A stretch of DNA of 46,013 bases from Alphaproteobacteria bacterium (lineage in GTDB: Bacteria > Pseudomonadota > Alphaproteobacteria > SHNJ01), in NCBI GenBank assembly GCA_004295055.1, contig SHNJ01000035.1:1-46013 (forward strand), given 5' to 3'. The position numbers and the translations under genes are program-made. This document shows positions 241 through 16,953 of this stretch, one piece after another (position 1 is the stretch's first letter; each line of letters starts with the position of its first letter). The notes below the pieces were generated by a model. It worked only from the letters and a program-made list of their open reading frames with translations, was not told the DNA's origin and made no database searches.

Positions 241-690
241 TTACGGTAAAACCGTTACGTCAATGACTTCGAATTTAGCCGTCGTAACGGTAGTTCCAAC
301 CACTAATGGAAATTCAAATACTGGCCTTTGACGCAATTCGTTTAAACCGATGGAACGTCTATATCCCTCGCCAGTTTCTGGATCGCGGGTAAAAAATATA
401 ACGCTGTCGCGATTTTGACTGAATACCAGTACGGTGGCGTATCTATTTTTTTCCTGGCCTTCAAGACCAATAACTTCCGGCGATAACGAAGTCACATCCA
501 CCCTCGTGCCGTTAACCAACATACGCACCGTGTAAACATGGGACATATCCAAATTCTGGGCGCCCATCAAGGTTTGTTGCATGTCATAAGCAGCACCGGA
601 GTCTAATCTTTCCGAGGTAAGGTTTGGGGCGGCACATGCGCTTATAACCGCCAACATTGCCAGAACTGAAACTTGATATATTCTTTTCAT
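241..690 (-). CDS. Predicted lipoprotein, paralogue of its upstream neighbour
   Basis: This is a 149-residue protein with a lipoprotein signal peptide: a basic start (MKR), a hydrophobic core and the lipobox-like ISAC near residue 19. Its C-terminal half resembles the adjacent upstream lipoprotein (738-1316). Both share an FTR-P--GEGYR core, with FFTRDPETGEGYRRSI here and LFTRNPKNGEGYRAII there, and both follow it with a PVFEFP/PQFSFP segment. I infer an old tandem duplication. It is the last gene of the minus-strand run that contains the type II secretion genes, 47 nt after its paralogue. I do not recognise the family. A role as a periplasmic or outer-membrane accessory of the secretin is inference from position only. 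Confidence 0.7.
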   Translation of the reverse strand: MKRIYQVSVLAMLAVISACAAPNLTSERLDSGAAYDMQQTLMGAQNLDMSHVYTVRMLVNGTRVDVTSLSPEVIGLEGQEKNRYATVLVFSQNRDSVIFFTRDPETGEGYRRSIGLNELRQRPVFEFPLVVGTTVTTAKFEVIDVTVLP

Positions 691-737: not shown

Positions 738-1316
738 CTACTTATCGTCCGATAAGGCTCTGGGACCAGAATCGGGCAATTCGGTATAAAATGGTTCTTC
801 TGGCGGCATCGAGCGTTGTAAATATTCGCGCAAGCCGCGAACATTATCGGCGGGGTCCGGCTTGCGAATGACGTTAACGACCTGAACCGGCAATTCTTCG
901 ATCATATTGCCTTTCAAAAAAGGAAAGCTGAACTGCGGCCAAAAATTAGCTTCTTCCAATGGAATGATGGCCCGGTACCCTTCGCCGTTTTTAGGATTGC
1001 GGGTAAATAGCAATAATTCATCTTGATTCAACGAAAAACGCATAGCCGATACCGATTTTTCATCGCCATAACCGGTGGTGGCCAAAATTAGCGGCGCGTG
1101 CGTGGTGATGCTGTAAAACTCGTTTCCAATGCGTACTTTAGCCGCATAAACGCGGTTGGCGTTGTATTTGGCCGGTTCCACCATACCTTCTTGGGTGGTG
1201 CGCGCGGCCTGCAAAGACAGCCATGTCATTTCAACGGGAGGCAATGGCGGCGTGTTTCCGCACGAGGCCAAAGACAAAATAATTATTAAGGAGAATAAGA
1301 ATGGTGCTTGTTTCAT
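738..1316 (-). CDS. Predicted lipoprotein downstream of the gspL-like gene
   Basis: This is a 192-residue protein with a clear lipoprotein signal (hydrophobic segment ending LASC, Cys at about residue 19), followed by a proline-rich stretch. The central domain (about residues 55-155) is paralogous to the next gene; the shared core is LLFTRNPKNGEGYR here. It carries a C-terminal extension of about 40 residues, rich in Pro, Glu and Asp, that the paralogue lacks. It starts 41 nt after the gspL/pilN-like gene stops, so it is probably in the same transcript. The family is not recognised. Anchoring in the outer or inner membrane facing the periplasm is predicted from the signal alone. Confidence 0.7.
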   Translation of the reverse strand: MKQAPFLFSLIIILSLASCGNTPPLPPVEMTWLSLQAARTTQEGMVEPAKYNANRVYAAKVRIGNEFYSITTHAPLILATTGYGDEKSVSAMRFSLNQDELLLFTRNPKNGEGYRAIIPLEEANFWPQFSFPFLKGNMIEELPVQVVNVIRKPDPADNVRGLREYLQRSMPPEEPFYTELPDSGPRALSDDK

Positions 1317-1357: not shown

Positions 1358-2344
1358 TTATGGCTGCAACGATTGTTTAGGGGTTGTGGATGATAGCGGG
1401 ACAGAAGCCAAATACCGGTTAAATTGGGGCAACGGGGTAATTTCGATGGTTGATGGATCCACGCCAAATGCGGACAGCCATTCTTTAGGATCGCGTCCAA
1501 GGCCGCTGATATTCAATCTGCCTTCTTTATATTCAACACGATCGATTGATATGCCGGGCGGCAAGGTTTGAATCAAACGGCTTAGAATTGGGAAAAACCG
1601 GCTATTTTCTTGCGCTTGAAATTTGTCAAAATCTTCCAATGTGGAACGCATCGTCTGCATTGCTTCGTAACGCTGTTTGGTATTTTGCACTTCGGTCTGC
1701 AAAGTGGCGATATCCCGCATCAACTTTTGCTGTTGCCAGTCATATTGAAATGACCAAAGCGTATAACCGACCGCCAATATCGTTACAAAAAGCAATACCA
1801 ATTTTGCAAACGCTTGCAGCACAGGCGGCAGAATACGCGTGGGCTTGGCGATTAAATCATTTGCGGCGCCAATATCGAATCTTTGCAAAAGGCCTGCCTT
1901 GATGGAATCCACATCCGCGGATGCCGGCAATACCGCCAGGGCCGGCGCGGAAATATTTTTTTGTAAAATCAACCAGTCGTTTTCAGGTAGCGCGAAAATT
2001 ACATTTTCCGCCGAATCGCCACCATCTTTAGTATAGGCAAAATGCACATTTTGTTCCGAACTGAATGGAAAAAAATCGCGGGCAATACGATTTAAATCCG
2101 CTTTGCTGGCAATTGGCATCGGACAACGGCGGCGAAACATCAACCTGGGATCGAGAAAGACCACACATTTTTGCGCCCTGGCAAAAGGAGTCATTTCAGA
2201 CTGGGATTCGATACGAATTTGACCATACCGGTCAGCTTGCCAGCGAAAATGTTTTGCCTTTCCCTGTTCGTCCAAGGCAATAATCCGCTTCGGCAAAAAA
2301 GAAAAACTTTTCGGCAATGTTCGAGTCACTGATGACGCGGCCAT
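1358..2344 (-). CDS. GspL/PilN-like inner-membrane assembly protein of the type II secretion system
   Basis: This 328-residue protein has an N-terminal cytoplasmic region (1-170, with a weak actin-like flavour), one transmembrane helix at about 179-198, a coiled coil at about 205-245 and a small C-terminal alpha/beta domain containing LPPGISIDRVEYKEGRLNIS. That C-terminal pattern is typical of PilN and the Fimbrial/GspL periplasmic domains, which join the cytoplasmic ATPase to the periplasmic scaffold. The gene starts 9 nt after the gspD stop codon. It could be called GspL by topology (cytoplasmic part plus helix plus ferredoxin-like part) or a PilM-PilN-like fusion. I see no clear ATP-binding signature in the N-terminal part. 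Confidence 0.65.
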   Translation of the reverse strand: MAASSVTRTLPKSFSFLPKRIIALDEQGKAKHFRWQADRYGQIRIESQSEMTPFARAQKCVVFLDPRLMFRRRCPMPIASKADLNRIARDFFPFSSEQNVHFAYTKDGGDSAENVIFALPENDWLILQKNISAPALAVLPASADVDSIKAGLLQRFDIGAANDLIAKPTRILPPVLQAFAKLVLLFVTILAVGYTLWSFQYDWQQQKLMRDIATLQTEVQNTKQRYEAMQTMRSTLEDFDKFQAQENSRFFPILSRLIQTLPPGISIDRVEYKEGRLNISGLGRDPKEWLSAFGVDPSTIEITPLPQFNRYLASVPLSSTTPKQSLQP

Positions 2345-2353
2345 AATTCCTCT

Positions 2354-4915
2354 TTACTGCAGTAACGGCTTATTAGCCGGTTTAATAGTGGTTTTATTGC
2401 CATCCGGTGTCGGCGATGGCGGATCGTCTGGCGCCAGCGTTGGCGGCGGCGTAGGTCTTTCCGGCACATAAGTCGCGCCTGCGGTTCCGCCATCTTCTTC
2501 ATCGGCGTCTGTTCCGCGCAAGAAAGTCGGTGGCGGCGGCGGTGGCGGCACCATCGGCGTCGTATCGGATGACATTGGTTTATTTTCCGTCTCCACGGGT
2601 TTTTCAACGAACATATCGGCCGGAGCTTTGTTTTCTTGTTCAGGCGGCTTGCCAGTCATTTTTTGTTTGGCTACCGGATCACTGGTGACTGGACTGCGCA
2701 GATCGGGATCGGGGGCCTGAGAGGCGCGCATAACATCCGGATTGATGCTGGCAAGACCGGACAAGGATTCGCTGACCAATTTCGCCGAAATTTCATCGAC
2801 GATTAAATATGGAGTCATGAATATAATCAATTCGGTGCGTTGATCCTGGTCATCGGTATTGGCAAATGCTTGGCCAAAAAACGGAATGTCGCCAAAGAAC
2901 GGGACCTTAGTTTTAAGCCTGCTTGTGCTGTTGCGAATCAAGCCGCCGATCAGCAACGTTTCGCCGTTTTTGGTAACAAGTTCGGTATTAACTTCGCGAA
3001 TATTGAATCGCGGACGTTCCCCCGAAGAATCATCGTCCGCACCTTGGCGCGAATCTTGGATTTTCACCGCCATATTGACCGTTCCATCTTCGGCAATGCG
3101 CGGTGTAACTTGCAAGCTGACGCCGACTTCCTTGTCTTCGAATTCGCGCTTTGGAATATTGTCGCCGCCTTGTTGTACCGATGTAGTCAGAACCGATTTG
3201 ACGATACGAACCTGGTCGGTACTTTTGATGGTCGCGGTGGCTTTGTTTTTAACAATGACGCGCGGCCGGGACAAAACACGCAGGCTGGTTTCGCTCGACA
3301 ATAAATCCAAGGTGGCAAATGTGTTGTTGGCCAACGATACGACGCCGATGCGCGCGGCTGGCGTTGCTATGCGGCCATTGGAAAGATCGGTGGTAATATC
3401 GCCGCGCACATTGCCGGCGCGGCCTCCCAAGAACCATTCAACGCCATAAGCCAAATTGTCATTTAACTGTACTTCGACAATAGTCGCATCGATCAATAGA
3501 CTTGGCACACGATAATCTAAACGATCAATCACTTTTTTAATTTCAAAATATTGATCCGCGGTACAGGTAATCACCAAAGAATTGGTTGGAACGTTAGATA
3601 CGACTGTAATGTCCGATGCGTCCGGCAATAATCCCGGGATCAATGTCGTCAATGTCGTGCGCACATCGTCAACCACCTGATTGCGCAAGCCATAATAGAA
3701 AATTTGTTTTTGTTTTTTGCCTGGTTGATCGACTTGATTTAGATATTGCAGAACGATATCGCGCGTATCCTGTCCATCCGCGACGATCGTAACGCGTTTG
3801 GCGCCGGTAATGATCGCCGCTTCAATCTGCTTTTTACCTTCGGTGGAATTCATGCCCAATTGCTGCGGCAAGGTTTGCAATAAAGTCACCATGGCTTCGG
3901 CGCTGATATATTTTGGCGAATACACAATGATACGCTTGTCTTTGAATGTCGGCGTATCGACAGTGCGTAAAAATGCATCGATATAACGAATTTCCGGACC
4001 ACTTCCATTCACGATCAAAGTATTGTGCTTATCCAACAGCATCACGCCTTCGGAATTGGCCACAAATGGGCGCACGATCTGCATCGCTTCGGAAGCATCG
4101 ATGCTTTTTAAACGCCAAACGCCGGTAGATGTTCCTATTTCACCGCCACCAATAGTTTTGGTGCCGCTATTTTTATTGGTGATGGTGTAGATACCATCAA
4201 GACGCGATACCACCACGCCTTGAATGTCCAAAAATGTTTCAAACATTCTTTTAACTTCGGCGGCAGTGAATTCACCTTGCGCCACCCAATTCACTTCTTT
4301 GTCCACGAATTCCGAAGAAATCACATATGGTTTTTTTACATATTCTCCAAACACAAATTCGATTACCGCGCGCAGAGAAGTATTGGTAAAATTAATTTCA
4401 ACCTGACGCGGAGTAAATGGATCCGCCACCTCGTCCACAACTGGCGGCGCTTGGGTAATATTGCCGTTTTCATCGACCATCGGCGGAGCGTCTGGATTTA
4501 CCGGCGGCGTTGCGGATTTTGCCTTGGTTGATTTTGGCTTGGGCGACGGCGCTTCTTCTTCAGTTTCGGTGGAAACCCGTTTACTGTCGGGGCCGGAATT
4601 TTTACCGGACGAAACGCCAAATTCCGCTATGACCCCGCCTTCGCCCCGCGGCATCGGGCCGGTCAATGGCTGATCGTAACTGGCCATTTTATCGAGAACC
4701 GACTGGCTATGCTGTACCGCCTGGCTGCTGCGCGTATCCGGCGTGTCTTTGCGCGCCATATCTTCTTTCGTAGGCATTGGGTTGGCGATAAAATAATCGA
4801 AATCGTTTTTCTTCAGATTTTTCCAGGTTTCTTTCCATGACGAGCAAGCGGTCAATAACGCCACGCAGCTTACGGTCACAAGAATTATTTTTACGGTATT
4901 AGAGAAAGAGCGCAT
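2354..4915 (-). CDS. gspD: Type II secretion system secretin GspD
   Basis: This 853-residue outer-membrane secretin forms the channel through which folded exoproteins leave the periplasm. A lipoprotein signal ends at Cys24 (LLTAC). A low-complexity linker rich in Lys, Pro and Thr runs from about 50 to 165. The N0-type domain starts near 171 (VEINFTNTSLRAVIEFVFGE), followed by ring domains and the secretin core, with VGVSLQVTPRIAEDGTVNM and KTKVPFFGDIPFFGQAF. The core ends in a conserved strand (RTELIIFMTPYLI). The C-terminal 110 residues form a Pro-rich tail. The lipidation site may make a separate pilotin unnecessary. The secretin core is well conserved. The long linker between lipid anchor and N0, and the Pro-rich tail, are unusual. 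Confidence 0.93.
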   Translation of the reverse strand: MRSFSNTVKIILVTVSCVALLTACSSWKETWKNLKKNDFDYFIANPMPTKEDMARKDTPDTRSSQAVQHSQSVLDKMASYDQPLTGPMPRGEGGVIAEFGVSSGKNSGPDSKRVSTETEEEAPSPKPKSTKAKSATPPVNPDAPPMVDENGNITQAPPVVDEVADPFTPRQVEINFTNTSLRAVIEFVFGEYVKKPYVISSEFVDKEVNWVAQGEFTAAEVKRMFETFLDIQGVVVSRLDGIYTITNKNSGTKTIGGGEIGTSTGVWRLKSIDASEAMQIVRPFVANSEGVMLLDKHNTLIVNGSGPEIRYIDAFLRTVDTPTFKDKRIIVYSPKYISAEAMVTLLQTLPQQLGMNSTEGKKQIEAAIITGAKRVTIVADGQDTRDIVLQYLNQVDQPGKKQKQIFYYGLRNQVVDDVRTTLTTLIPGLLPDASDITVVSNVPTNSLVITCTADQYFEIKKVIDRLDYRVPSLLIDATIVEVQLNDNLAYGVEWFLGGRAGNVRGDITTDLSNGRIATPAARIGVVSLANNTFATLDLLSSETSLRVLSRPRVIVKNKATATIKSTDQVRIVKSVLTTSVQQGGDNIPKREFEDKEVGVSLQVTPRIAEDGTVNMAVKIQDSRQGADDDSSGERPRFNIREVNTELVTKNGETLLIGGLIRNSTSRLKTKVPFFGDIPFFGQAFANTDDQDQRTELIIFMTPYLIVDEISAKLVSESLSGLASINPDVMRASQAPDPDLRSPVTSDPVAKQKMTGKPPEQENKAPADMFVEKPVETENKPMSSDTTPMVPPPPPPPTFLRGTDADEEDGGTAGATYVPERPTPPPTLAPDDPPSPTPDGNKTTIKPANKPLLQ

Positions 4916-4922
4916 GTAAGAT

Positions 4923-5405
4923 TTACCTGATTTGAATATTTATCGATTGTCGTAGTTGATTGCGATTCTGATTGATATCAATTTCTTTCGTTCCCTGTGG
5001 CGTATTGATTTTAATTTGCCCCATATCGACCGATTCCAAACTGCCCCCATCGACCGATCCGCCAACAGGAACGAATTTGTTGCCAGCCATAACTCCCTTT
5101 ACTCCGGGAATATTGATAAGGCCGTTAACCTCGCCCACAACCTGCGGACCGCCGGCGCCTTTTACCTTTGGTTTACGCATCGATGCCTGCCATGTCTGTC
5201 CGCTGGGATCGAACATATTGCGGGAAATGTCCGCCATGATATCAAAATCGGAATTGGCGGCGAAATCGCTTTGCACCACAATTTCCTGGGGCTGATAAAA
5301 GAAAATTTGCAAATATGGCGCCGCGAATATCGGTAAAAACGCGCCAATCATCACAGCGCAAGACCGCAACAGCCATTTATTGATGGTCAGCCACTGCAAT
5401 TTCAT
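4923..5405 (-). CDS. GspC-like protein: membrane anchor plus HR-type domain, no PDZ
   Basis: This 160-residue bitopic protein has a membrane helix at about 13-36, then RNMFDPSGQ, which resembles the short motif after the helix in GspC, and a small beta-rich domain (about 105-155) resembling the GspC homology region that contacts the secretin N0 domain. It ends right after this domain, so the PDZ or coiled-coil end of classical GspC is absent. The start codon overlaps the preceding gspM/pilO-like gene by 4 nt, and the stop lies 7 nt before gspD, which is the usual gspC-gspD order. PilP is an alternative label. The assignment rests on position, topology and the short motif. Confidence 0.6.
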   Translation of the reverse strand: MKLQWLTINKWLLRSCAVMIGAFLPIFAAPYLQIFFYQPQEIVVQSDFAANSDFDIMADISRNMFDPSGQTWQASMRKPKVKGAGGPQVVGEVNGLINIPGVKGVMAGNKFVPVGGSVDGGSLESVDMGQIKINTPQGTKEIDINQNRNQLRQSINIQIR

Positions 5406-6037
5406 TCCGCAGCCTCCGCCAAAAATATAGCCAGACGGCCGCTGATGCTTACCTGGCGGCGCATACGATCAGTGGCGACAGACATGCTGCGCCATATCAT
5501 GCCATTTTTTCCATCCCCCAAATCCAACATCAATTTGGCCGCATCTTGAGATGAGCCTGTGGTAAAGGAAATATCTGCCAACGCCTTGCGACCGCCCTTT
5601 GGCGACAAGGCTTCACTTTCCGCAACATTGATTTTTAAATCTTCCAACGTGCCCAAATCATCGAGCCTGGCGCGCAAGGCATTTTCTATAAAAGTTTTAT
5701 CGTCGGTATTTTTATCGGTAATCAATCCCGTCAGGCCGCTGATCTTATCGGCATAGGTCGAAGCTAAATTAAAATAGGCTTTATCAATTTCCGCCTGTTT
5801 GGCCTTGAAGTTCCGCAAATCCGCGCGCGTACGGTACAAGGATGGCAATGTTTCTATCGTGGCCGGGACCGCGCCGCCAAAATCCGTCGTTGTGCCCACG
5901 GCCGAGGCGATATCTTCGGCAACCCCGCCGCCCTGGAACAAGGAAGAAATACCATGGGTATGGTCGTACCAATAAACGCCGCCCAGCACAAAAGCCGCCA
6001 GCAGCAAAAAGAATAATCTTTTATTGGGTTTTGCCAT
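5402..6037 (-). CDS. GspM/PilO-like inner-membrane protein
   Basis: This 211-residue protein has a short basic cytoplasmic start, one helix at about 7-24, a helical stretch (about 65-105) and a C-terminal alpha/beta domain. This is the layout of GspM and PilO, which pair with GspL or PilN in the inner-membrane platform. Sequence motifs for the family are too weak to read by eye, so the call comes from topology and position: first gene of the M-C-D-L group, 4-nt overlap with the gspC-like gene, start 97 nt after the histidine kinase stop. It may share a transcript with the kinase or have its own promoter in that gap. Confidence 0.55.
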   Translation of the reverse strand: MAKPNKRLFFLLLAAFVLGGVYWYDHTHGISSLFQGGGVAEDIASAVGTTTDFGGAVPATIETLPSLYRTRADLRNFKAKQAEIDKAYFNLASTYADKISGLTGLITDKNTDDKTFIENALRARLDDLGTLEDLKINVAESEALSPKGGRKALADISFTTGSSQDAAKLMLDLGDGKNGMIWRSMSVATDRMRRQVSISGRLAIFLAEAAE

Positions 6038-6134: not shown

Positions 6135-8414
6135 TCAGGCTGCCTGAATTATCTTTTCCAAGTCCCCAGCGGACAGCTTGGATTTTGAAGAAGGCCGAAT
6201 TCGGGCTGGAGATTTTGCCCCAAGATCGATCACGACATCGCATAAATATCGGCACTGATGCCACAGATGTGGCGGCAATGTATCATCTTTAGATCGGATC
6301 AATATAGTCCATGCGGAAGCATCTTCCTGTAAAATAGCTTCAAGTTCTTGATAAGTCTCTAATTCTGCGACTTCATATCCCATCGATTCAAATTTCTCGA
6401 CCAAATATTGCCTGGTACTGTTTTGTGGCAATAATAACAATATACCTTCGGCAGGTAGAGTTTCGTTATCGTTTAAAGCTTCGCTCCATGGTTCGCCGTC
6501 CACTTGTTGCAATAAGGGCAACCAGATTTTTGCGGTGGTTCCGTGGCCTGGCTTTGAAATCAAACTTAATTTTCCGCCATGCGCTTCGGTGATCAAATAG
6601 CTGATAGCAAGACCAAGACCGCCCTGCCCTTGCCCTTTGGTTGAAAAACCAGGATCGAAGGCTTTTTGCAACTGCTCTTCATTCATGCCCACGCCGCTAT
6701 CGTGGAATGAGACTAAAACGCCCTGTTGTTCTAAGTTGCTTTGAATGGATATGTTCCCGCCTTTTGGCATGGCTCGAATGGAATTTGACAGCAGGTTGAT
6801 AAACACCCGCAAGATCTGGGTAGCATCGACCTCAACACGAATATCCTTGCCAATCGCCGATGCAATCGCGATTTGTTGCGATCGCGCTTGAGGACCAATG
6901 ATCTTGGTTGCCTCTTCGATCAAATCGAATAATAAAACCGGCTTTAATGTAGGTTTATGAAAAACCTGCCCCGCCCCCAACTGGCCCAGCATTTCCTTGC
7001 CGCGTTGCGAAGCCTGATAAACCGCATCGATCGCTTGATTGGCTTCAATATCCTTTGCGCCGGAAAGTTTTTGCCGGATCACATTCAAGTGACTTTGAAT
7101 TGCCAGCATGAGATTGGAAAAATCGTGATGAATAACTTGGCTGGTTTTGTGAATGCCATGCACGCGTTCGGATAAAATCTTGCGGCGTTCTTCTTGTTCC
7201 CGCGCGCTGACATCTTCCGCCTGCAAACTGTAACCGTAAACAACCTTATCAACCATCAACGGCAAAATGGTCAGTTCGATTATTTTTTCCTGTTGCTGAT
7301 CCTTTATATTAAGCTGGTGTTTCAAGTATCTATTTTGAATCAATGCCGGATCCTGCAAAATGGTTTTTAATTCCGGCAAATAATCCGTAATAGGGCAACC
7401 TTCGGCCAAAAATTGGCCGGTGGCGTGATCGATCAACAATTCCTGCGCCGCGGGATTGAATTGTCTTAACCTCCAACCCTTGTCCAATTCCACCAAAGCG
7501 ATCGGGCTGCGTTGCATTTGATGATGGCGCAAATATTCTTCTTGGCGCAAGGCCTGATTCAGTTGGCGCAATTCCGCGATTTGTTCGCGCGCGCCGGTAA
7601 TCGATTCGGATTGTTGACCGGATTCGGCGCGGAAATTTAAGACCCCCCAAATAGACCGTTTGGGCATCAACGCATTTTGCATATACGCCATCACATCATA
7701 CGCCAGCAAAGTGACAAAGGCGGGAGCGGCCAACAAACAAAATTCTGGCCATTCCAAGCCTATGTTGATCAGGCCTTGATCATATCCATAGGTTAGAAAG
7801 GAGAATAACGGCAGAAACACCGTAATACCGGCGGCAAATCCAAATGGCAAAGTCAGCAACCGGCTGACGCGCCGCGCCAACTCGGCGCCGATGGTGCATA
7901 CAACGCCAGAAATAATCAAGCTTCCGGCCAGAGCGATCTGGGTATTGATCGGGGTAAAAAATAAACTTGGCGTTGGCGTAACATGGCCCAATGTTTCAAG
8001 AAAAAACGAATAGCCCATGCCAAAAACGGCGCCGCACACCATCACGCCCAAAAACGCGCGGGCCATGCGCACGCCATCCATCGCGTAAGTTAACGTGGCG
8101 CCAGCCAACAATGCCGGAATAATGCCCAGCAAAGCGGCGTTGATTTTATAATCTTGCCAATCCACCCACCAGCCGATTTGCACCAATTGCCAAACGAGGA
8201 AAGTCAACAAACCTCCCAATGCCAGCATCGGCGCCATGGTTATTTGGCCGCGCAATTGATGCAAGGCCATGATTAATCCGGTGGCGATAAAATAAACGCC
8301 GACAAAATATAACGGCGATGCGTATAACGCGTAATCGAATTGAGACCATACTGGCATTATGCCGGTTGCTGGCGTTATAAATTCTTCGACGTACCAGCCA
8401 ATGGAACTGTTCAT
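6135..8414 (-). CDS. Membrane PAS-domain histidine kinase with a degenerate C-terminal receiver
   Basis: This is a 759-residue sensor kinase. About seven transmembrane helices fill residues 30-248. A PAS-like domain follows (about 295-405), then the dimerisation H-box with VIHHDFSNLM (phospho-acceptor probably His430). The catalytic ATPase domain shows the N-box around Asn540-Asn544, DSGVGMN at 572 and GGLGLA at 598. The last 100 residues resemble a receiver fold but I see no acidic pocket or conserved phospho-Asp context, so it is probably a pseudo-receiver. The partner response regulator is encoded 17 nt upstream. The pair sits inside the type II secretion cluster between gspK and the gspM-like gene, which suggests it controls secretion; that is inference. 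Confidence 0.85.
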   Translation of the reverse strand: MNSSIGWYVEEFITPATGIMPVWSQFDYALYASPLYFVGVYFIATGLIMALHQLRGQITMAPMLALGGLLTFLVWQLVQIGWWVDWQDYKINAALLGIIPALLAGATLTYAMDGVRMARAFLGVMVCGAVFGMGYSFFLETLGHVTPTPSLFFTPINTQIALAGSLIISGVVCTIGAELARRVSRLLTLPFGFAAGITVFLPLFSFLTYGYDQGLINIGLEWPEFCLLAAPAFVTLLAYDVMAYMQNALMPKRSIWGVLNFRAESGQQSESITGAREQIAELRQLNQALRQEEYLRHHQMQRSPIALVELDKGWRLRQFNPAAQELLIDHATGQFLAEGCPITDYLPELKTILQDPALIQNRYLKHQLNIKDQQQEKIIELTILPLMVDKVVYGYSLQAEDVSAREQEERRKILSERVHGIHKTSQVIHHDFSNLMLAIQSHLNVIRQKLSGAKDIEANQAIDAVYQASQRGKEMLGQLGAGQVFHKPTLKPVLLFDLIEEATKIIGPQARSQQIAIASAIGKDIRVEVDATQILRVFINLLSNSIRAMPKGGNISIQSNLEQQGVLVSFHDSGVGMNEEQLQKAFDPGFSTKGQGQGGLGLAISYLITEAHGGKLSLISKPGHGTTAKIWLPLLQQVDGEPWSEALNDNETLPAEGILLLLPQNSTRQYLVEKFESMGYEVAELETYQELEAILQEDASAWTILIRSKDDTLPPHLWHQCRYLCDVVIDLGAKSPARIRPSSKSKLSAGDLEKIIQAA

Positions 8415-8431
8415 ACCCTACCCTTTTTATA

Positions 8432-9043
8432 TTAGGCCGCGTTAACTGCTGCACGGCGGTTTTCACCGCGCTTGCGGCGAATCGAGCGAATCTGCACCCG
8501 AATAGTGTGCACCGACCGGTCCAAGCGAAAAGCGATTTCTTTGTCACTGAGACCCTGGCGGATTAATTCGTAAATTTCATGTTCACGCGATGACAATGCC
8601 GTCCCGCGGGGAAACATATTCCGCGCCGGAACGAATTCCTGTGCAACGGATTCATACCATAATGGCGCCGTGGCGGGATTGGATTGCAGCAATTTTCCAA
8701 TCGCCACAATTAATTCGGAAAAATCGACAGTTTTGGCAATGTAGGCCGTCGCCCCCATACTAAGCGCGTGCAGAATATCGTCGCGATCCTGGCTGCCCGA
8801 TAACAACAAAGAATATTTTGGATAATGTCCAGCAAGCGCGGGGTCGGAAAATAATTGGCCGCCGCGTCCGTCCGGCAAGTTAATATCGATAATGGCCAGA
8901 TCATAAATTTTACTGGCCACTTTTTGTTTGGACTGGGCCAGATTGCCAGCAATTTCAATGGAACAACCCGGATACTGGCCTTTCAATGCGGCTTCCAATC
9001 CGGCGGCTACCAATGGATGATCATCAACGATTAATATTTGCAT
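8432..9043 (-). CDS. NarL/FixJ-type response regulator
   Basis: This 203-residue regulator has an N-terminal receiver with the acidic pair in IVDDH, phospho-acceptor Asp53 in IIDINLPDGRGG, and Lys in YIAKTVDFSEL. A C-terminal LuxR-type helix-turn-helix is seen as TALSSREHEIYELIRQGLSD then KEIAFRLDRSVHTIRVQI. Proteins of this family are activated by phosphorylation and bind promoter DNA as dimers. It is followed after 17 nt by the membrane histidine kinase, clearly its partner. The gene starts 126 nt after gspK, with a possible promoter in the gap, so the two-component pair may be expressed separately from the upstream pseudopilin genes. Confidence 0.9.
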   Translation of the reverse strand: MQILIVDDHPLVAAGLEAALKGQYPGCSIEIAGNLAQSKQKVASKIYDLAIIDINLPDGRGGQLFSDPALAGHYPKYSLLLSGSQDRDDILHALSMGATAYIAKTVDFSELIVAIGKLLQSNPATAPLWYESVAQEFVPARNMFPRGTALSSREHEIYELIRQGLSDKEIAFRLDRSVHTIRVQIRSIRRKRGENRRAAVNAA

Positions 9044-9169: not shown

Positions 9170-10348
9170 TTACTGCATGTACACATCCAATATTTTCTTT
9201 CTTTCCGGCAAATAATCGGCGTGCAATTCGATTTTTTTACCCTTAAGCACAACATGCACCGGTTGGTCTTGCGAAGCGCTGTCGGTGACCTTTTCATTCC
9301 ATTTTTTAGCCGAATCCGTTCCGATCAACCCAACCAAAGTCTGATTATACAATGGATCGTTTTTTTGTTTCTCATATTGCAGGGCGGCGGCCACTTCCGC
9401 AGGCTGAAGTTCCGTATAGGCGGCGATGCCTGCCGGCGTGTTGTATTTATAATTAATGCGCGCATCGGTTCCATATATTGTGAAATTGCGCCGCAGAAAA
9501 TTGATCATCGCCGCATCTATGCCCGGAATATAGGATAATTGATCGAACCGGTCGATTAAACGATTTGGGAATTTGGTGATATAACGATTATCCGATTGGA
9601 AAGGGCCTTCAGTGTTGCCAGCCAACGCATTGCGGTCTTCGTCATGAAAATCGACCAAGAACTGCGACAATTTTTCCGCAGCGCGATCTTCGATCCCGAG
9701 CCATATTAAATACCGCTCTAAATCTTCCTGATCGATGTAATTTAAATTTGGCTTGGCATTGCCTGGATATATTTCCAATATGTAATTTTCTCCATCAAAC
9801 GCGATAGTTTGCGGCGAGTTATCCAACGAATAGCGTTTTGGCAATCCAAAATTGCTTATAGTGCCGCGTTCGATGCGGACCTTTTCTTCCTGCAATGCAT
9901 TCAGCGCTTTGTTGACCTGGCTTAAATCGGGGATATTCAGTTGAAACCCCATTTGCGATAACATTTCCCGCAAATTTTCAATCGGCGCTCCGGATCCGCC
10001 AAGAGAAATCCTGGTTTGATCGACCAGCACAATTTTACGTTCCATTTCCCATCGCGCATCCACCGCCATCGGTTCGCCCTTCATTTCAAACAAGACGAAA
10101 TTGAATACGCTGCTGATTTTCTTCCAATTAATCGGATGCGCCAGGGTGCGTTCCAGCTGCGCCGGCGCCGAAGGCGCCTGCTTGAAAAAATATGCCATCA
10201 TGACCGCGCAAGCGGTCAAGATCCAGAGGCAGTAGACCAAGATAAAACCCCCGGAGCGAAAACAATTTCTTTTTTCTGTCCGGCCTGATGATAAGTCAAC
10301 CGGGCTAAAGGAGGCATCATCTTTTTGTCGTTCCATTGATTGGACCAT
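9170..10348 (-). CDS. gspK: Type II secretion minor pseudopilin GspK
   Basis: This is a 392-residue protein of GspK size, the tip pseudopilin of the secretion pseudopilus. The membrane segment (FILVYCLWILTACAVMMAYF, about 36-55) follows a Gly-Gly cleavage context. It lacks the Glu+5 of major pseudopilins, as GspK usually does. The helical insertion domain is visible as DFHDEDRNALAGN and NLNYIDQEDLERYLIWLG, and YIPGIDAAMINFLRRNF is also typical. The start is unusual: in this frame the only ATG, GTG or TTG codons ahead of the membrane segment are ATGs at 10348 and 10336. The gene therefore overlaps gspJ by 121-133 nt and the leader is more than 30 residues long. Confidence 0.85.
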   Translation of the reverse strand: MVQSMERQKDDASFSPVDLSSGRTEKRNCFRSGGFILVYCLWILTACAVMMAYFFKQAPSAPAQLERTLAHPINWKKISSVFNFVLFEMKGEPMAVDARWEMERKIVLVDQTRISLGGSGAPIENLREMLSQMGFQLNIPDLSQVNKALNALQEEKVRIERGTISNFGLPKRYSLDNSPQTIAFDGENYILEIYPGNAKPNLNYIDQEDLERYLIWLGIEDRAAEKLSQFLVDFHDEDRNALAGNTEGPFQSDNRYITKFPNRLIDRFDQLSYIPGIDAAMINFLRRNFTIYGTDARINYKYNTPAGIAAYTELQPAEVAAALQYEKQKNDPLYNQTLVGLIGTDSAKKWNEKVTDSASQDQPVHVVLKGKKIELHADYLPERKKILDVYMQ

Positions 10349-10836
10349 CTTTTTTTACCGTCTTCCCAATACTCAAATTCCGCACTATCAATTCCGCTAA
10401 ACGCCGTCAACTCCATAGAAAACTTCCCGCCATACTGCCGCCAGGAATCTATTTGCGCGGTATATTGCTGCTGGCTGTCATCCCACCACGGCGGAATGGT
10501 AACTTCGTGATATTGGATAATTTTCAAACCGGAATTATAGCGATAGGTAACCAATACCGGCTGGCCATTATGCCCAAATTGCGCGCTATTGCGGCTGATG
10601 AAAGACAGGCGGTCGTTCCTGGCATCGACTGCGGAGAAATAATTATTCAGCCCGGCGTCGATCGCTTCGAACTGCAAGCGTAAAAAATATTGGGTGCCCC
10701 ATTCTTTATTGGTGCTTAGCGCGCGTTGCCCAACCTTACGAACCGTATCATAGATATTCGAGGCCATAATAATCAATGCGCTGGCCAAAGCGACGCTAAG
10801 TAAAATTTCGAGCAAAGTGAATCCGCGCTGATTCAA
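10216..10836 (-). CDS. gspJ: Type II secretion minor pseudopilin GspJ
   Basis: This 206-residue prepilin-like protein has a very short leader (MNQRG) followed by FTLLEILLSVALASALIIMA, the classic class III signal with Glu at position +5. GspJ is a minor pseudopilin of the tip complex with GspI, GspK and GspH. The globular domain begins after the N-terminal helix; its length fits GspJ. The start overlaps gspI by 4 nt and its 3' end is overlapped by gspK, so the I-J-K order is intact. The family label GspJ rather than another minor pseudopilin rests on length and order. Confidence 0.85.
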   Translation of the reverse strand: MNQRGFTLLEILLSVALASALIIMASNIYDTVRKVGQRALSTNKEWGTQYFLRLQFEAIDAGLNNYFSAVDARNDRLSFISRNSAQFGHNGQPVLVTYRYNSGLKIIQYHEVTIPPWWDDSQQQYTAQIDSWRQYGGKFSMELTAFSGIDSAEFEYWEDGKKRWSNQWNDKKMMPPLARLTYHQAGQKKEIVFAPGVLSWSTASGS

Positions 10837-11309
10837 TTGGTTCTGCCTTTCACCGCAACCGGCGAATCCGGATTCGGCAACAATCCCGGCTGCAACAAAC
10901 GCACCGCAAAATCGCCATCGCCGCCGAAATCGAACACCTGGAAAGGCGAAAACGCCACCGTCATCGGCACATCCACGTCTTCGTATTTATAATTATTTAC
11001 CTTTATTTTTTTCTCTTTGCCTTCTTCGTCGGTACGGCTGACCAGCAATTCTTTTTCCGTAAGACGCGCGCTTACTTCTTTCCATTTAATAGCCGAGAGC
11101 ATATTGGCTTCGTTCAAACTTTGCGCCACTAGCGCTTGTTTGGCCAACGAACGTTCGGAATATTTCATTATGGTATATAGCTGCTGCAACATCACCGTCG
11201 CCCCCAAAGTCAGAACGGTAAAAGCAATCAATACCTCAAGCAGGGTAAATCCCCTGCGATTTTGTTTGCACAGAAAGCAAAATCGCAAGCGGGATAAAAT
11301 TGGAAACAT
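10833..11309 (-). CDS. gspI: Type II secretion minor pseudopilin GspI
   Basis: This 158-residue prepilin-like protein has a basic leader of about 20 residues ending RRG, then FTLLEVLIAFTVLTLGATVM with Glu at +5. After processing by a prepilin peptidase the protein would join the pseudopilus tip with GspJ and GspK. The LEVLIAFTVL pattern is typical of GspI. It begins 8 nt after the dockerin-repeat gene stops and overlaps gspJ by 4 nt, so translation of I and J is probably coupled. The needed peptidase GspO is not encoded in this window. Confidence 0.85.
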   Translation of the reverse strand: MFPILSRLRFCFLCKQNRRGFTLLEVLIAFTVLTLGATVMLQQLYTIMKYSERSLAKQALVAQSLNEANMLSAIKWKEVSARLTEKELLVSRTDEEGKEKKIKVNNYKYEDVDVPMTVAFSPFQVFDFGGDGDFAVRLLQPGLLPNPDSPVAVKGRTN

Positions 11310-11317
11310 TTACCAAA

Positions 11318-12019
11318 TTATTGGGTGGTCGAAGAAGACGACGAAGTGGAACTGCGTAAACGGGACGAACTATTCAATGCCTTGATTGCATTGATCACGT
11401 CGCGGGTATTAACCAAACCGTCGCCATTAACATCCGCATCCGCATTCGGACGGGCCGAGCCTAATTCCGCTTTGATCGCATTGATATCGGCCTGGTTAAA
11501 TACGCCATCGCCATTGACATCGTAAGTTTCATTAACGGTCCCATCGCCACCATCACCGCCGCCATTCCCGCCGCTGCCGCCGGAAATAAGCGTACCGATG
11601 GTTGGATTCAAAGAAAAACGGGATGGGAATGGAAAAGTTCCGCTATACGGAAAGGAAACCGGCGAACCGTTGCTGGTTAATTGATAAGTGGCATTGCCTT
11701 TTTTCAGCAACGCGGTCAGCGTGGTGCCATTGAAACTTTGAGTTTTGGCCATATCGACAAAATATGTGCCGTCAGACGCAATAACCGATCCTTGGCCTTC
11801 GGTGCGATTGAGGCTGGTTGGCTGAACAATTAAAATAATGTCGTTCACGGCTGGGGACACGCCGCCAGCGCCAGTAATCGTTCCAACAACTTGCAAATTA
11901 GACGGCACTTCTTGAGCAAAAGCGGGGGAAGCAACCATACCGCCTACCGTCAACATCGACACTATCAGCAAAGCTTTTGTTATAAGGGATGGAATCGTCG
12001 GCATCTTTGATAAAAACAT
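11318..12019 (-). CDS. Exported protein with a type I dockerin-like Ca2+-binding repeat pair
   Basis: This 233-residue protein has a cleavable signal peptide (hydrophobic core about 14-34, ASPAFAQ cleavage context), a beta-rich N-terminal domain (about 38-145), a Gly-rich linker (about 148-162) and two dockerin-type loops, DVNGDGVFNQADI and DVNGDGLVNTRDV, each followed by an INAIKAxL helix. Loops of this form bind calcium, and dockerins dock onto cohesin domains. The tail is a Ser/Thr-rich stretch ending in TTQ. The gene lies between gspF and gspI, 8 nt from gspI, with its own promoter-like sequence upstream. I infer either a substrate of the secretion system or a structural accessory. No cohesin is encoded in the window. 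Confidence 0.85.
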   Translation of the reverse strand: MFLSKMPTIPSLITKALLIVSMLTVGGMVASPAFAQEVPSNLQVVGTITGAGGVSPAVNDIILIVQPTSLNRTEGQGSVIASDGTYFVDMAKTQSFNGTTLTALLKKGNATYQLTSNGSPVSFPYSGTFPFPSRFSLNPTIGTLISGGSGGNGGGDGGDGTVNETYDVNGDGVFNQADINAIKAELGSARPNADADVNGDGLVNTRDVINAIKALNSSSRLRSSTSSSSSTTQ

Positions 12020-12060
12020 ACACCCAACCTCGAACGATTGATTAATTAACGAATAATCCG

Positions 12061-12167: not shown

Positions 12168-13349
12168 TTATTGCGGAGCCAGATCGGTTAAGGAATAAAC
12201 CGCTACCAGCATGGATATCACAATAAAGGCGATTACCAATCCCATCACCAAAATAATAAGCGGCCCTAACAAATTAGCCATGGTTTTTGCTTTTAATGTC
12301 ACCTCATCGCCGATTTGCTGTCCGGCTTTTTCCGCCATGCTGTCCAGCTTGCCGGTTTCTTCGCCAATGGCCAGGAACCTTACCGCCAATGTTGGAATTC
12401 CCGGAAAATTATTCATCGCCAGACTGAGATTCCGTCCGCGCCGCACTTCGTTTTGAATATCCATCATGCGTTGCTGAATCACTATATTCGATGTGGATTT
12501 TGTTATAAGTTCCAGCGCCGACACCAGTGGCACGCCATTCCGTAATTGCACCGCCAACAAAGACATGACTTGGGCGGTATAAATTTTAGATAGGAAACTT
12601 CCTGCAAATGGCAAACGCAGAATAATTTGAGACCACCAAGAACGAAAAAATTGCGACTGCCTGATATAATATTGCAGTCCGACGACAGTCAGAATAATTG
12701 TGCCGAGAATATACCATCCATAAGCCATCAACAAATCGCTGAAAGCAAAAATGAATCGCGCATTCCAGGACAGCATATTAACTTTATCCTGAAACAAATC
12801 CTTAAATGTCGGAATAACATAGATTCCAAGGATAATGATCGATACCAAACTTAATACCACCAATACTATCGGATATAACAATGCGCCCTGAATATCCGCG
12901 CGCATTTTACGCGACCGGTCATAATGAATTTCCAGCGTTTGCATGACTTCAGCCAACTGGCCGCTGGCCTCGCCAGCGCGGATAACGGTAATAGCCAGGG
13001 GATCGATTGCGCCCATGGATTCCAGGGCTTGCGATAATTGCTGACCTCGCTTTACGCTTTCGCGCAATTGGCCGGCAAAATTCGACAATGTTTTATCGGC
13101 GCTGTCTTCGCCTATGATTTGCAAGGCGCGATCAATAACAATGCCACTATTCAAAAGCGGACTTAGTTGACCGATCAGACGCGCCAGCAAGCTGCGTTTT
13201 AAACGCGGCAATTTAGCTTCCTTGCTTTCAACCAGAATTAATTTGCGTTGTTTTAAACGGCGCTCTAATTCTGCCGAATTCTGCGCATATTCCTGGCCTT
13301 GCTGTTGCTGACCGTCGCGGGCATAAGCGGTATATTGATAAACCGGCAT
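12168..13349 (-). CDS. gspF: Type II secretion inner-membrane platform protein GspF
   Basis: This 393-residue polytopic protein begins MPVYQYTAYARDGQ, the usual GspF start. It carries two repeated cytoplasmic domains (about 60-160 and 265-365) and three membrane helices near 165-190, 210-230 and 365-390. The motifs VIRAGEASGQLAEVMQTLE and LAIGEETGKLDSMAEKAG are the paired family signatures. GspF contacts the ATPase GspE and the GspL-like protein in the assembly platform. Its start codon shares a base with the gspE stop codon at 13349, which indicates tight coupling. Length and motifs fit the family fully. Confidence 0.95.
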   Translation of the reverse strand: MPVYQYTAYARDGQQQQGQEYAQNSAELERRLKQRKLILVESKEAKLPRLKRSLLARLIGQLSPLLNSGIVIDRALQIIGEDSADKTLSNFAGQLRESVKRGQQLSQALESMGAIDPLAITVIRAGEASGQLAEVMQTLEIHYDRSRKMRADIQGALLYPIVLVVLSLVSIIILGIYVIPTFKDLFQDKVNMLSWNARFIFAFSDLLMAYGWYILGTIILTVVGLQYYIRQSQFFRSWWSQIILRLPFAGSFLSKIYTAQVMSLLAVQLRNGVPLVSALELITKSTSNIVIQQRMMDIQNEVRRGRNLSLAMNNFPGIPTLAVRFLAIGEETGKLDSMAEKAGQQIGDEVTLKAKTMANLLGPLIILVMGLVIAFIVISMLVAVYSLTDLAPQ

Positions 13350-14962
13350 CAGCCCACCACGCGCAAGATTTCTTCGATAGTGCTTTCACCGGCTAAGACA
13401 CGGCTGAATCCATCTTGCAACATGGTTATGTAGTCGCTGCCGGCCGCATTCGAAATATTTTCCGGTGTCGGTTCCGATAAAATGGAACTGCGCACAGATG
13501 CATTGATGCCCAGAAACTCTGAAATCGGCAACCGCCCCTTATAGCCGATTTGTCCGCATTCGGGGCAACCTTTGGCATTATAAATTCTGGCGCCTGGCGC
13601 AAATCCATATTTTTTTACATGAACTTCGCTAACCACGCCTGGACTTCTGCAATGTGGGCACAGTTTACGCACCAAACGCTGGCCAGTGACCGCAATCAAA
13701 GAGCTTGCAAGCAAATAATCGGCAACGCCCATATTCAACAAACGGCCGATGGCGCCAACCGCGCTGTTGGTGTGAACGGTGGATAAAACCAAGTGGCCCG
13801 TCAGGGCGGCCTGCACCGCAATTTCCGCGGTTTCACGGTCGCGAATCTCGCCCACCAAAATTACATCGGGATCATGCCGCAAAATCGAACGCAGAGTGTT
13901 GGCAAATGTAACGCCAATTTCCGCATTCACCGGAATTTGCGAAATTCCTGGGATATCGTATTCCACCGGATCTTCGACGGTGATAATTTTTTTATGGCCA
14001 TCGACAATATCGCGCAGACCGGAATAAAGCGTGGTGGTTTTTCCAGAACCGGTCGGGCCGGTTACCAAAATCAAGCCATGGCTTTTATTTAGAACTTCGC
14101 GGAATTGCGTAACCATGCGCGGACTGACACCCAACGCGCCCAGCGACAATAATTGTTTTTTCTGATCCAGCAAACGCAACGCCACGTCTTCGCCGAAATT
14201 GGTCGGGATCGTGGAAACACGGACATCCACGTCCTTGCCGCCGGTTTTAACCGAAAAACGGCCATCTTGCGGCAGGCGGCGTTCGGCAATATCCAATTGC
14301 GACAGAATTTTAATGCGGCTGACGATCGCGGGATATTCTTCGACCGTTGGCGCGGGCCGCGCATGCAACACGCCATCGACACGATAGCGCAATTCAATTT
14401 TATTCCGCATCGGTTCCATATGAATATCCGACGCGCCAACCTTGATACCGGATAAAATCATGTCGTTGACATAACGGATGATTGGCGCTTCCAACGCCAA
14501 ATCTTTTAAATGCTCGATATCGGAAATGTAAGAATCGGAGGTGCTGGATTCGCCATCGATATGAAAATGATTTTCCAAACGAAATTGAATTTCGCGTTCT
14601 GGCGCGATGGCAATTTCCGCCTGCGGCAACAAGCGTTGCAACATATCCACCAGCCCGTCATCCTCGGGATGGGCAATGACCACCGTCAATTTATCTTCCG
14701 AATGCACCGGCAGGACGCGATTGAATAGCAAGAAATCCTGGCTTAAATTGGATACATCGCTGACTTCGCCACGGCCATTCCAAACCTGCAAACCGGACAG
14801 GGTTGCGTAAATCGAATATAACTGCTCATCGCTGAACACGCCCATGTCAAGCAAGGTTGCGCCAAGACCGCGGCCGGTTTTCTGCGATAATTTAGTAGCC
14901 TCGCTGATAATTTCCGGCGAGACCGAATCATTTTTTTCAAGATGTTCGCGCAATTGACGCAT
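13349..14962 (-). CDS. gspE: Type II secretion ATPase GspE
   Basis: This 537-residue cytoplasmic hexameric ATPase powers pseudopilus assembly. An N-terminal MshEN-like domain fills about 1-135. The core shows Walker A GPTGSGKTTT (302-311), the Asp box around ITVEDPVEYDIPG, Walker B DPDVILVGEIRD (364-375) and the His box around STVHTN. Four cysteines (Cys435, Cys438, Cys466, Cys469; CPHC and CPEC) form the zinc module typical of GspE and PilB. It lies 8 nt after gspG and abuts gspF. All catalytic motifs are intact. Confidence 0.96.
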   Translation of the reverse strand: MRQLREHLEKNDSVSPEIISEATKLSQKTGRGLGATLLDMGVFSDEQLYSIYATLSGLQVWNGRGEVSDVSNLSQDFLLFNRVLPVHSEDKLTVVIAHPEDDGLVDMLQRLLPQAEIAIAPEREIQFRLENHFHIDGESSTSDSYISDIEHLKDLALEAPIIRYVNDMILSGIKVGASDIHMEPMRNKIELRYRVDGVLHARPAPTVEEYPAIVSRIKILSQLDIAERRLPQDGRFSVKTGGKDVDVRVSTIPTNFGEDVALRLLDQKKQLLSLGALGVSPRMVTQFREVLNKSHGLILVTGPTGSGKTTTLYSGLRDIVDGHKKIITVEDPVEYDIPGISQIPVNAEIGVTFANTLRSILRHDPDVILVGEIRDRETAEIAVQAALTGHLVLSTVHTNSAVGAIGRLLNMGVADYLLASSLIAVTGQRLVRKLCPHCRSPGVVSEVHVKKYGFAPGARIYNAKGCPECGQIGYKGRLPISEFLGINASVRSSILSEPTPENISNAAGSDYITMLQDGFSRVLAGESTIEEILRVVG

Positions 14963-14970
14963 GAAGTTCC

Positions 14971-15420
14971 TTACCAGTTGCCGATATCGGCTGCATCCCC
15001 ATCGCCGCCCGGCTTACTATCGCTGCCAAGCGAATATAAATCGTAGTCGATGCCGTGCGATGGCGGCTTAGCATAGATGTAATCCGCCCCCCATGGATCT
15101 TTCGGCACTTGCCGTTTGCTTAAATATGGGCCGCCCCAGACCGATACGCCTTGAGGCTTTTCAATCAAAGCGCGCAGTCCTTCGCTTTGCGATGGATAAC
15201 GTCCCGTGTCCAAACGGAAAGAATCGAGAGCGCGGGACAATAGTTCAATCTGCGCCTTGGTCGCTTTAATCTGCGAAGAGGATACTTGGCCGAACAAGCG
15301 CGGTGCAATCAACGCCACCAACAAAGCGATAATCGCCATAACCACCAATAATTCCACCAAGGAAAAACCGGATTCCGATTTTGATCCTGGACGGCGCTTA
15401 TATAAAGTATGTTCGGTCAT
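14971..15420 (-). CDS. gspG: Type II secretion major pseudopilin GspG
   Basis: This 149-residue major pseudopilin has a 17-18-residue hydrophilic leader, then GFSLVELLVVMAIIALLVAL with Glu at +5. After the N-terminal helix come GGPYLSKRQVPKDPWGADY and the C-terminal calcium-site loop LGSDSKPGGDGDAADIGNW, both hallmarks of GspG. It would form the pseudopilus shaft after leader removal and N-methylation. It is 9 nt after gspH and 8 nt before gspE, in an H-G-E-F order rather than the usual E-F-G-H. Confidence 0.95.
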   Translation of the reverse strand: MTEHTLYKRRPGSKSESGFSLVELLVVMAIIALLVALIAPRLFGQVSSSQIKATKAQIELLSRALDSFRLDTGRYPSQSEGLRALIEKPQGVSVWGGPYLSKRQVPKDPWGADYIYAKPPSHGIDYDLYSLGSDSKPGGDGDAADIGNW

Positions 15421-15429
15421 AAAATCCTC

Positions 15430-15891
15430 TTACGGGAAAGCATAGGCTATTTCGGAATGAAACGGATTAATCTGTATTTTATACAAGATCGCGGTGGGAT
15501 AGCCAGTTTTTTTCTGCACCACCCGGAATTCCGACGCAATTCCGGTTCCATCACTGTAAAAAATGGCCAATAATTGTTTGCCCAAATAACCGGTTGGCGC
15601 AGGCCGATTGATTTCGAGTATTATATCTTTATCCAGGGTTAAAGTTTGCCCGCCGGGTTCGGCAACGATATTCGGCGCCTGCCAATAAATGAATCTTGTT
15701 TTACCTTCGTTTAAAGCGGCGTTCTGTTGCTGCTGCAAAAAAGCGACCATGGCCGGTACCGGCGGTTTAGCCGGCAAAGACAGACTGGGCACGATCATTG
15801 CGGTCAATAGTGCAATAATACCAAGCACTAATAGCATTTCCAGCAGCGTAAAACCGGAATTATGGCGACAAAAAGGCATATGGTTATTCAT
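15430..15891 (-). CDS. gspH: Type II secretion minor pseudopilin GspH
   Basis: This 153-residue prepilin-like protein has a 13-residue leader (ending HNSG), then FTLLEMLLVLGIIALLTAMI with Glu at +5, and a C-terminal beta-rich domain. Length and position beside gspG fit GspH, the minor pseudopilin that bridges the shaft and the tip complex. It is the first gene of the minus-strand secretion run. The 77-nt gap to the divergent gene at 15969 must hold its promoter, but I see no strong consensus there. Confidence 0.82.
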   Translation of the reverse strand: MNNHMPFCRHNSGFTLLEMLLVLGIIALLTAMIVPSLSLPAKPPVPAMVAFLQQQQNAALNEGKTRFIYWQAPNIVAEPGGQTLTLDKDIILEINRPAPTGYLGKQLLAIFYSDGTGIASEFRVVQKKTGYPTAILYKIQINPFHSEIAYAFP

Positions 15892-16386: not shown

Positions 16387-16953
16387 TTAGTGAGCTGGTT
16401 TTGGAGCCGGAGCTGCTGGCAAAGCCGAAGCTACCGACCAACCTGGGATCGAAGCGCCGTTCAGATCGCCTGGTTTTTTGTCCATGCTGTAGGTGTACAG
16501 CGGGCTGCCGTTGAAAGCCCATTGGTTGCCGTTGATCACGGTGAATGGACCAACTGGTTTATCGCTGCTGCTTGCTGCCAAAGCTGGCCACATTTTCGCG
16601 CATTCGCCAGAGCAATTCGATTTGCCCGAGCTGTCTTTGCTGTAGGTATATATGGTCATACCGGAAGCGGTGGTGAAATATTCACCTTTTGGGCCGGTTG
16701 CTTTTTTCACGCCGGCTGGCAAAGTTGCTTGCATAGCTTGCATCGTTGTGCCAGTGGTTGCAGATGGGGTAGTACCAGTTGCAGTTGTGTTGGTCATGCC
16801 GGTGGTAGTTTCAGTATTGCTGCTTGCAGATGCTGGGGCAGATTTGGTAGTTTCCGATTTCATCGAGCCGTGTGACGAGGTAGCGGATTCATTTGCCAAA
16901 ACCGGGCCAGCAACAAAAGCTGCCAACGCGGCAATGATCAATAGCTTTTTCAT
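16387..16953 (-). CDS. Exported protein with secreted repeats of the PF03640 (COG4315) family
   Basis: This 188-residue protein has a signal peptide (MKKLLIIAALAAFVAGPVLA), then a Ser/Thr/Ala-rich linker (about 22-75), then two repeats of the family. The first contains MTIYTYSKDSSGKSNCSGEC and AKMWPAL; the second contains PLYTYSMDKKPGD and ends GWSVA. The family occurs in exported bacterial proteins; its function is not established. The two Cys of CSGEC are conserved in the family as I know it. A strong Shine-Dalgarno (AGGAG) precedes the ATG. It ends at the shared terminator and is divergent from chvI, so it may share regulation with that operon. Confidence 0.85.
   Translation of the reverse strand: MKKLLIIAALAAFVAGPVLANESATSSHGSMKSETTKSAPASASSNTETTTGMTNTTATGTTPSATTGTTMQAMQATLPAGVKKATGPKGEYFTTASGMTIYTYSKDSSGKSNCSGECAKMWPALAASSSDKPVGPFTVINGNQWAFNGSPLYTYSMDKKPGDLNGASIPGWSVASALPAAPAPKPAH

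Follow-up and report, generated by a model that had tools for sequence, protein, structure and literature searches.

Dockerins and the Type II Secretion System

Type I dockerins (PF00404) are known mainly as the modules that plug into cohesins in cellulosomes. They are found on cellulosomal enzymes and also in non-cellulosomal dockerin-like proteins, and in cellulosomal scaffoldins a beta-sandwich X-module is followed by a dockerin (XDoc). A different set of accessory proteins, comprising the pilotins GspS/AspS as well as GspA/B and GspN, accompanies some type II secretion systems (T2SS) only, and to our knowledge none of them has a dockerin. Genes for T2SS substrates are usually scattered or lie at operon ends. 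The minor pseudopilins of the T2SS form a tip complex, within which GspK/XcpX binds Ca2+ (PMC6211770), and in type IVa pili the soluble protein PilY1 forms a tip complex with the minor pilins (PMC7541494).

The alphaproteobacterial gene X described here brings these subjects together, as it encodes an exported dockerin-type protein and lies inside a gsp operon. No description of a dockerin gene in such an operon is found by title or abstract in the open-access papers searched. X is probably an undescribed part, or a dedicated client, of the T2SS rather than a cellulosome-style enzyme anchor.

The gsp Operon Around X

The window, meaning the whole stretch of 46,013 nucleotides that was analyzed, carries a near-complete T2SS operon on the minus strand in the order gspH-G-E-F-X-I-J-K-(LuxR-type regulator, histidine kinase)-M-like-C-like-D-L-like-lipoproteins. 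Pfam identifies gspG, E, F, and D clearly, while the names of the divergent genes H, I, J, K, C, M, and L rest on position and motif:

15430-15891, minus strand, gspH-like minor pseudopilin (N_methyl; TIGR01708, 8.5e-08, below cut-off)
14971-15420, minus strand, gspG, major pseudopilin with the C-terminal loop DLYSLGSD...DI.NW (T2SSG, 2e-38; alignment to solved GspG chains)
13349-14962, minus strand, gspE (T2SSE, 3e-131)
12168-13349, minus strand, gspF (T2SSF, 6e-51)
11318-12019, minus strand, gene X, exported dockerin-type protein of 233 aa (open reading frame; Dockerin_1; orthologues at the same spot in loci L001 and L011)
10833-11309, minus strand, gspI-like minor pseudopilin with a distinctive C-terminal motif (N_methyl, 1.2e-07; position and prepilin motif)
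10216-10836, minus strand, gspJ with prepilin motif, overlapping gspI by 4 nt (open reading frame and Pfam)
9170-10348, minus strand, gspK (T2SSK_1st, 5.5e-05; NF037980, 8.8e-06, below cut-off)
4923-6037, minus strand, gspC-like (4923-5405) and gspM-like (5402-6037) genes (by position; no family match above cut-off)
2354-4915, minus strand, gspD secretin (Secretin, 4.6e-43; 40% identity to the secretin of the X locus in genome G033)
1358-2344, minus strand, gspL-like (weak PilN match; by position)

The gspI product scores 15.7 against the NCBIfam GspI model, far below the cut-off of 44.35. GspK of the window aligns too poorly to E. coli GspK for the calcium sites to be compared. The gspM-like product resembles that of a gene in the G033 locus (E 4e-06). 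X begins 148 nt past the end of gspF and ends 8 nt before the ATG of gspI at 11309, and these coordinates bear out the original prediction of a gene between gspF and gspI, 8 nt from the latter. A promoter-like sequence of its own had also been claimed for X, but 1.1 kb of sequence holds four promoter-like sites against 2.4 +/- 1.8 in shuffles, which is not above chance. Recent horizontal insertion of X was considered and rejected, because its GC content (0.494) equals that of the neighboring genes, orthologues occur in distant genomes, and there is no plasmid or phage match; a scan of viral contigs matched the dockerin stretch only.

Several neighbors of these genes are recorded as separate observations. 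Between gspK and the gspM-like gene, the operon includes genes for a LuxR-type response regulator and a membrane histidine kinase (6135-9043, minus strand), and a LuxR-type regulator likewise adjoins X in L001 (4357-5487). Small lipoproteins sharing the motif FTRxPxxGEGxR follow gspD and gspL in the window (241-690 and 738-1316, minus strand) and follow gspD in G033 (L011, 1-438). Pfam gives no match to them, nor does any NCBIfam match reach its cut-off, and they are candidates for pilotin-like or other T2SS lipoproteins. Near the operon, 16387-16953 (minus strand) encodes an exported protein that combines a Ser/Thr/Ala-rich linker with repeats of the YTYxKDxxGKSNC type and has a counterpart at the same place in genome G001 (L012, 4541-5161).

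Architecture of X

The frame of X opens with an ATG, 8 nt downstream of a Shine-Dalgarno-like GAGG (12028-12031), and is divided as follows:

11915-12019, minus strand, Sec signal peptide, residues 1-35, cleavage AFA↓QE (basic N-end and hydrophobic core evident in the sequence; no lipobox)
11582-11908, minus strand, N-terminal beta-sandwich, residues 38-146, tentatively transthyretin/Ig-like (AlphaFold2, weak Foldseek matches, identity to L001)
11522-11581, minus strand, Gly-rich linker, residues 147-166 (sequence; low pLDDT)
11486-11521, minus strand, dockerin Ca-binding loop 1, DVNGDGVFNQAD, residues 167-178 (Pfam, motif)
11399-11434, minus strand, dockerin Ca-binding loop 2, DVNGDGLVNTRD, residues 196-207 (Pfam, motif)
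11321-11371, minus strand, Ser/Thr-rich tail, residues 217-233 (alignment; tail not kept in G033)

The signal peptide, linker, and tail agree with the exported protein that had been predicted. X shares with the GspI-GspJ-GspK (XcpVWX) complex its gene neighborhood and a link to calcium, which in the tip is bound by GspK. It differs from these proteins in having an ordinary Sec signal peptide in place of the class III prepilin signal (G↓FxxxE) and hydrophobic helix of pseudopilins, and has no Pfam N_methyl match. Lacking the prepilin motif, X is not itself a pseudopilin. Like the known accessory proteins it is an extra protein that occurs with some T2SS only, but it differs from them in that it is not a lipoprotein, and none of the NCBIfam models matches it.

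The N-terminal domain was modeled alone with AlphaFold2, as the full-length model was too poor for the dockerin (pLDDT 52.6). The resulting nine-strand beta-sandwich (pLDDT 78.7) upholds the predicted beta-rich character of this domain. Its nearest solved folds in Foldseek are transthyretin-like and Ig-like (CnaB, S-layer, and pilin domains), with E no better than 3e-3; because no match falls below E 0.001, the name given to the fold is tentative. The domain of the G033 homologue has a weak Pfam match to an Ig domain (Big_6, E 0.012). A transthyretin/Ig-like fold is likely.

Homologues of X at Other gsp Loci

A scan of genome contigs yielded the homologue of L001, and searches of 59 relatives and of 385 Alphaproteobacteria genomes (a sample of the class) yielded those of G033 and G001. 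A sample of 398 Pseudomonadota genomes was covered as well, and most of the genomes are drafts. Whole-protein homologues occur in three genomes beyond that of the window (G000), namely G385 (locus L001), G033 (L011), and G001 (L012). All four X-bearing genomes have X at a gsp locus, a position conserved across lineages as for an accessory T2SS component. The original prediction would have failed if homologues of the N-terminal domain were never beside gsp genes, and the opposite was found, since all homologues adjoin them. The link between X and the T2SS is real and conserved. Because X occurs in four genomes only, it is dispensable to the T2SS in general.

The homologue in L001, from a groundwater Proteobacteria MAG, is 48% identical to X overall (54% in the N-terminal domain) and has the same layout. 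Here gspH, G, E, and F run in the opposite direction. The next gene after X encodes a prepilin, and its ATG falls within the final part of X. L011 has the order X, gspI, M-like gene, short C-like gene, gspD, lipoprotein, with the frames of X and gspI overlapping or abutting. In this incomplete genome X and gspI stand together even though gspJ and gspK are absent from that locus. One comparison of the G033 and window N-terminal domains gave E 1e-11. The contig of L012 ends inside X, leaving the N-terminus at the contig edge, and X adjoins gspF as it does in the window; this genome, likewise incomplete, is a family mate of G000, and its GspF is 58% identical to that of the window.

No further X was found in the remaining sampled Alphaproteobacteria among the 385 genomes, nor in the other members of the order to which G385 belongs (23 genomes). 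Among the 398 sampled Pseudomonadota genomes there is no X outside G000, and matches cover the dockerin alone. Matches in G348 and G124 were rejected as X, as they cover only the dockerin part, within longer frames, and were read as unrelated proteins. Those in genomes of other classes in the phylum sample were rejected on the same ground of dockerin-only coverage in longer frames. As a separate observation, the G348 and G124 loci (L018 and L019) encode very long dockerin proteins and have a gene content atypical of the class, which suggests contaminating contigs.

The Dockerin Module and the Question of a Cohesin

The two-loop dockerin claimed for the C-terminus of X is well supported. Pfam Dockerin_1 matches at E 4e-10 (40.2 bits, against a gathering threshold of 22.9), DVNGDGVFNQAD from residue 167 and DVNGDGLVNTRD from residue 196 both fit DxNxDGxxNxxD, and not one of 200,000 shuffled versions of X carries such a pair. 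X thus has the two D-x-N/D-x-D/N-G...D Ca-binding loops of a type I dockerin, and the pair is kept in the three complete homologues (window, L001, and L011). All three have intact Ca-ligand positions in both loops and loop starts 29 residues apart, and Dockerin_1 gives 31.5 bits for L001 and, for L011 as protein, 21.4, just under the cut-off. From the intact ligand residues, we infer that X binds calcium.

X therefore shares with type I dockerins the two F-hand loops and all acidic ligands. It differs from them in its 29-residue loop spacing, in having no attached enzyme, in the lack of a detected cohesin in the genome, and in being encoded in a T2SS operon. It also lacks an ST/SS-type recognition pair such as cellulosomal dockerins have. 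The order of beta-sandwich and dockerin recalls XDoc, but X has no scaffoldin or cohesin context, and its weak match to such a chain (2b59_B, E 0.1) lies in the dockerin part only.

In a classical role, X would bind a cohesin displayed by the cell surface or by the secretin and thereby hold secreted proteins in place. The loops themselves speak for this, as both are canonical and align by sequence to solved cellulosomal dockerins (6kg9 and 2y3n). This explanation is nevertheless improbable. No Pfam cohesin (PF00963) is found in G000, G001, G033, or G385, a search that diverged cohesins could escape and that covers G001 and G033 as incomplete genomes; G000 encodes no dockerin besides X, and GspD of the window has no cohesin domain by Pfam. 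The lack of a Pfam cohesin in four genomes and the single dockerin in G000 thus disfavor the surface-anchoring factor that had been proposed. Dockerins are rare in the class, occurring in 9 of 385 sampled Alphaproteobacteria genomes, and in the dockerin-bearing stretches inspected only X adjoins gsp genes. The fixed place of a dockerin gene next to gspI in several T2SS loci, in genomes where no cohesin could be detected, suggests that the module serves another function.

X, a Variant GspI, and a Proposed Role at the Pseudopilus Tip

X is tightly placed against gspI in three loci, with a gap of 8 nt in the window, a start codon inside X in L001, and overlapping or abutting frames in L011. The adjoining GspI is a variant with the motif N-F/Y...VP...SPxQ. 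A profile of three GspI sequences finds full-length matches only in G000 and G033 among the 385 genomes; the other 38 genomes with a match are matched mainly in the common prepilin helix. The match in G001 is also short, and G385, the source of the third sequence, carries X too. As the profile was built from sequences of the same X-bearing genomes, these counts are not independent proof, but they are suggestive of variant GspI and X traveling together in this sample.

There is about an even chance that X serves a T2SS variant of a few alphaproteobacterial lineages as an accessory component, a Ca2+-stabilized periplasmic or tip factor acting with GspI. In this proposal, X would be exported by Sec and would fold in the periplasm into a beta-sandwich and a Ca2+-loaded two-loop dockerin. 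Its link to the tip complex of minor pseudopilins would be the variant GspI, and by analogy to PilY1 it may cap the tip, prime it, or present cargo. The dockerin would then serve as a calcium-dependent folding or docking module that uses no classical cohesin. The Sec signal, the Ca ligands, the gene order, the calcium of the tip in GspK, and the PilY1 analogy together point to X sitting on or priming a GspI-containing tip, or being dedicated cargo; its contact with GspI, site of action, and role are inferred.

The likeness to PilY1/PilC of type IVa pili is that of a soluble, Sec-exported, Ca-binding protein (binding being predicted for X) encoded with minor pilins, and the tip location of X is proposed by this analogy only. 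X differs from PilY1, which is large and has a beta-propeller domain, in its 233 aa and its beta-sandwich and dockerin, and has no Pfam match to the propeller.

A dedicated substrate would yield much the same gene order if kept in the operon for co-expression. X would then leave the cell through GspD as an exoprotein that perhaps binds a surface or the matrix. Its Sec signal peptide without a lipobox, flexible Gly linker, and Ser/Thr-rich tail look like features of secreted proteins, its beta-sandwich resembles Ig-like domains of adhesins and pilins, and a Ca2+-binding fold is expected from the intact ligands. A review describes calcium as stabilizing Sec-dependent T2SS cargo (PMC10128026), which also counts for this role. 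However, each of the three complete loci has X directly before gspI, in two of them with frames that overlap or abut, and within the sample the variant GspI next to X is limited to genomes that carry X. A substrate role is less likely than the component role but is its main rival. The dedicated substrate and the calcium-dependent tip adaptor of the original prediction are both plausible, with the adaptor slightly favored.

The tight coupling to gspI, together with the kinase and regulator genes of the operon, would also suit a role in the periplasm as calcium sensor or chaperone, with X either delivering GspI or reporting envelope calcium to this two-component system (8432-9043 and 6135-8414). 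Nothing ties X to the kinase, and the stretch of the G033 locus that was read has no kinase/regulator pair, making such a role the most improbable of those considered.

Within the preferred reading of X as an accessory tip factor, a stronger version may be put forward only tentatively, namely that X is an undescribed T2SS subunit, a calcium-loaded non-pilin tip protein on a co-evolved GspI, replacing or supplementing parts of the GspJ-GspK tip. If true, this would provide a secretion machine with a PilY1-like protein and a dockerin with a cohesin-independent use. More broadly, X suggests a calcium-linked part of a well-studied secretion machine that has gone unrecognized, and is a testable candidate for how a T2SS might cap or prime its tip or match it to cargo.

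A further observation comes from another locus of the X-bearing genome G033. L060 encodes two tandem proteins (136-1119 and 1129-2178) whose N-terminal hydrophobic segment is pilin-like (GFAIGLILLAVVLI...) and which have dockerin-like pairs of EF-hands (weak PF00404). In a genome that has X, they connect dockerin-like loops with pilin-like proteins for a second time.
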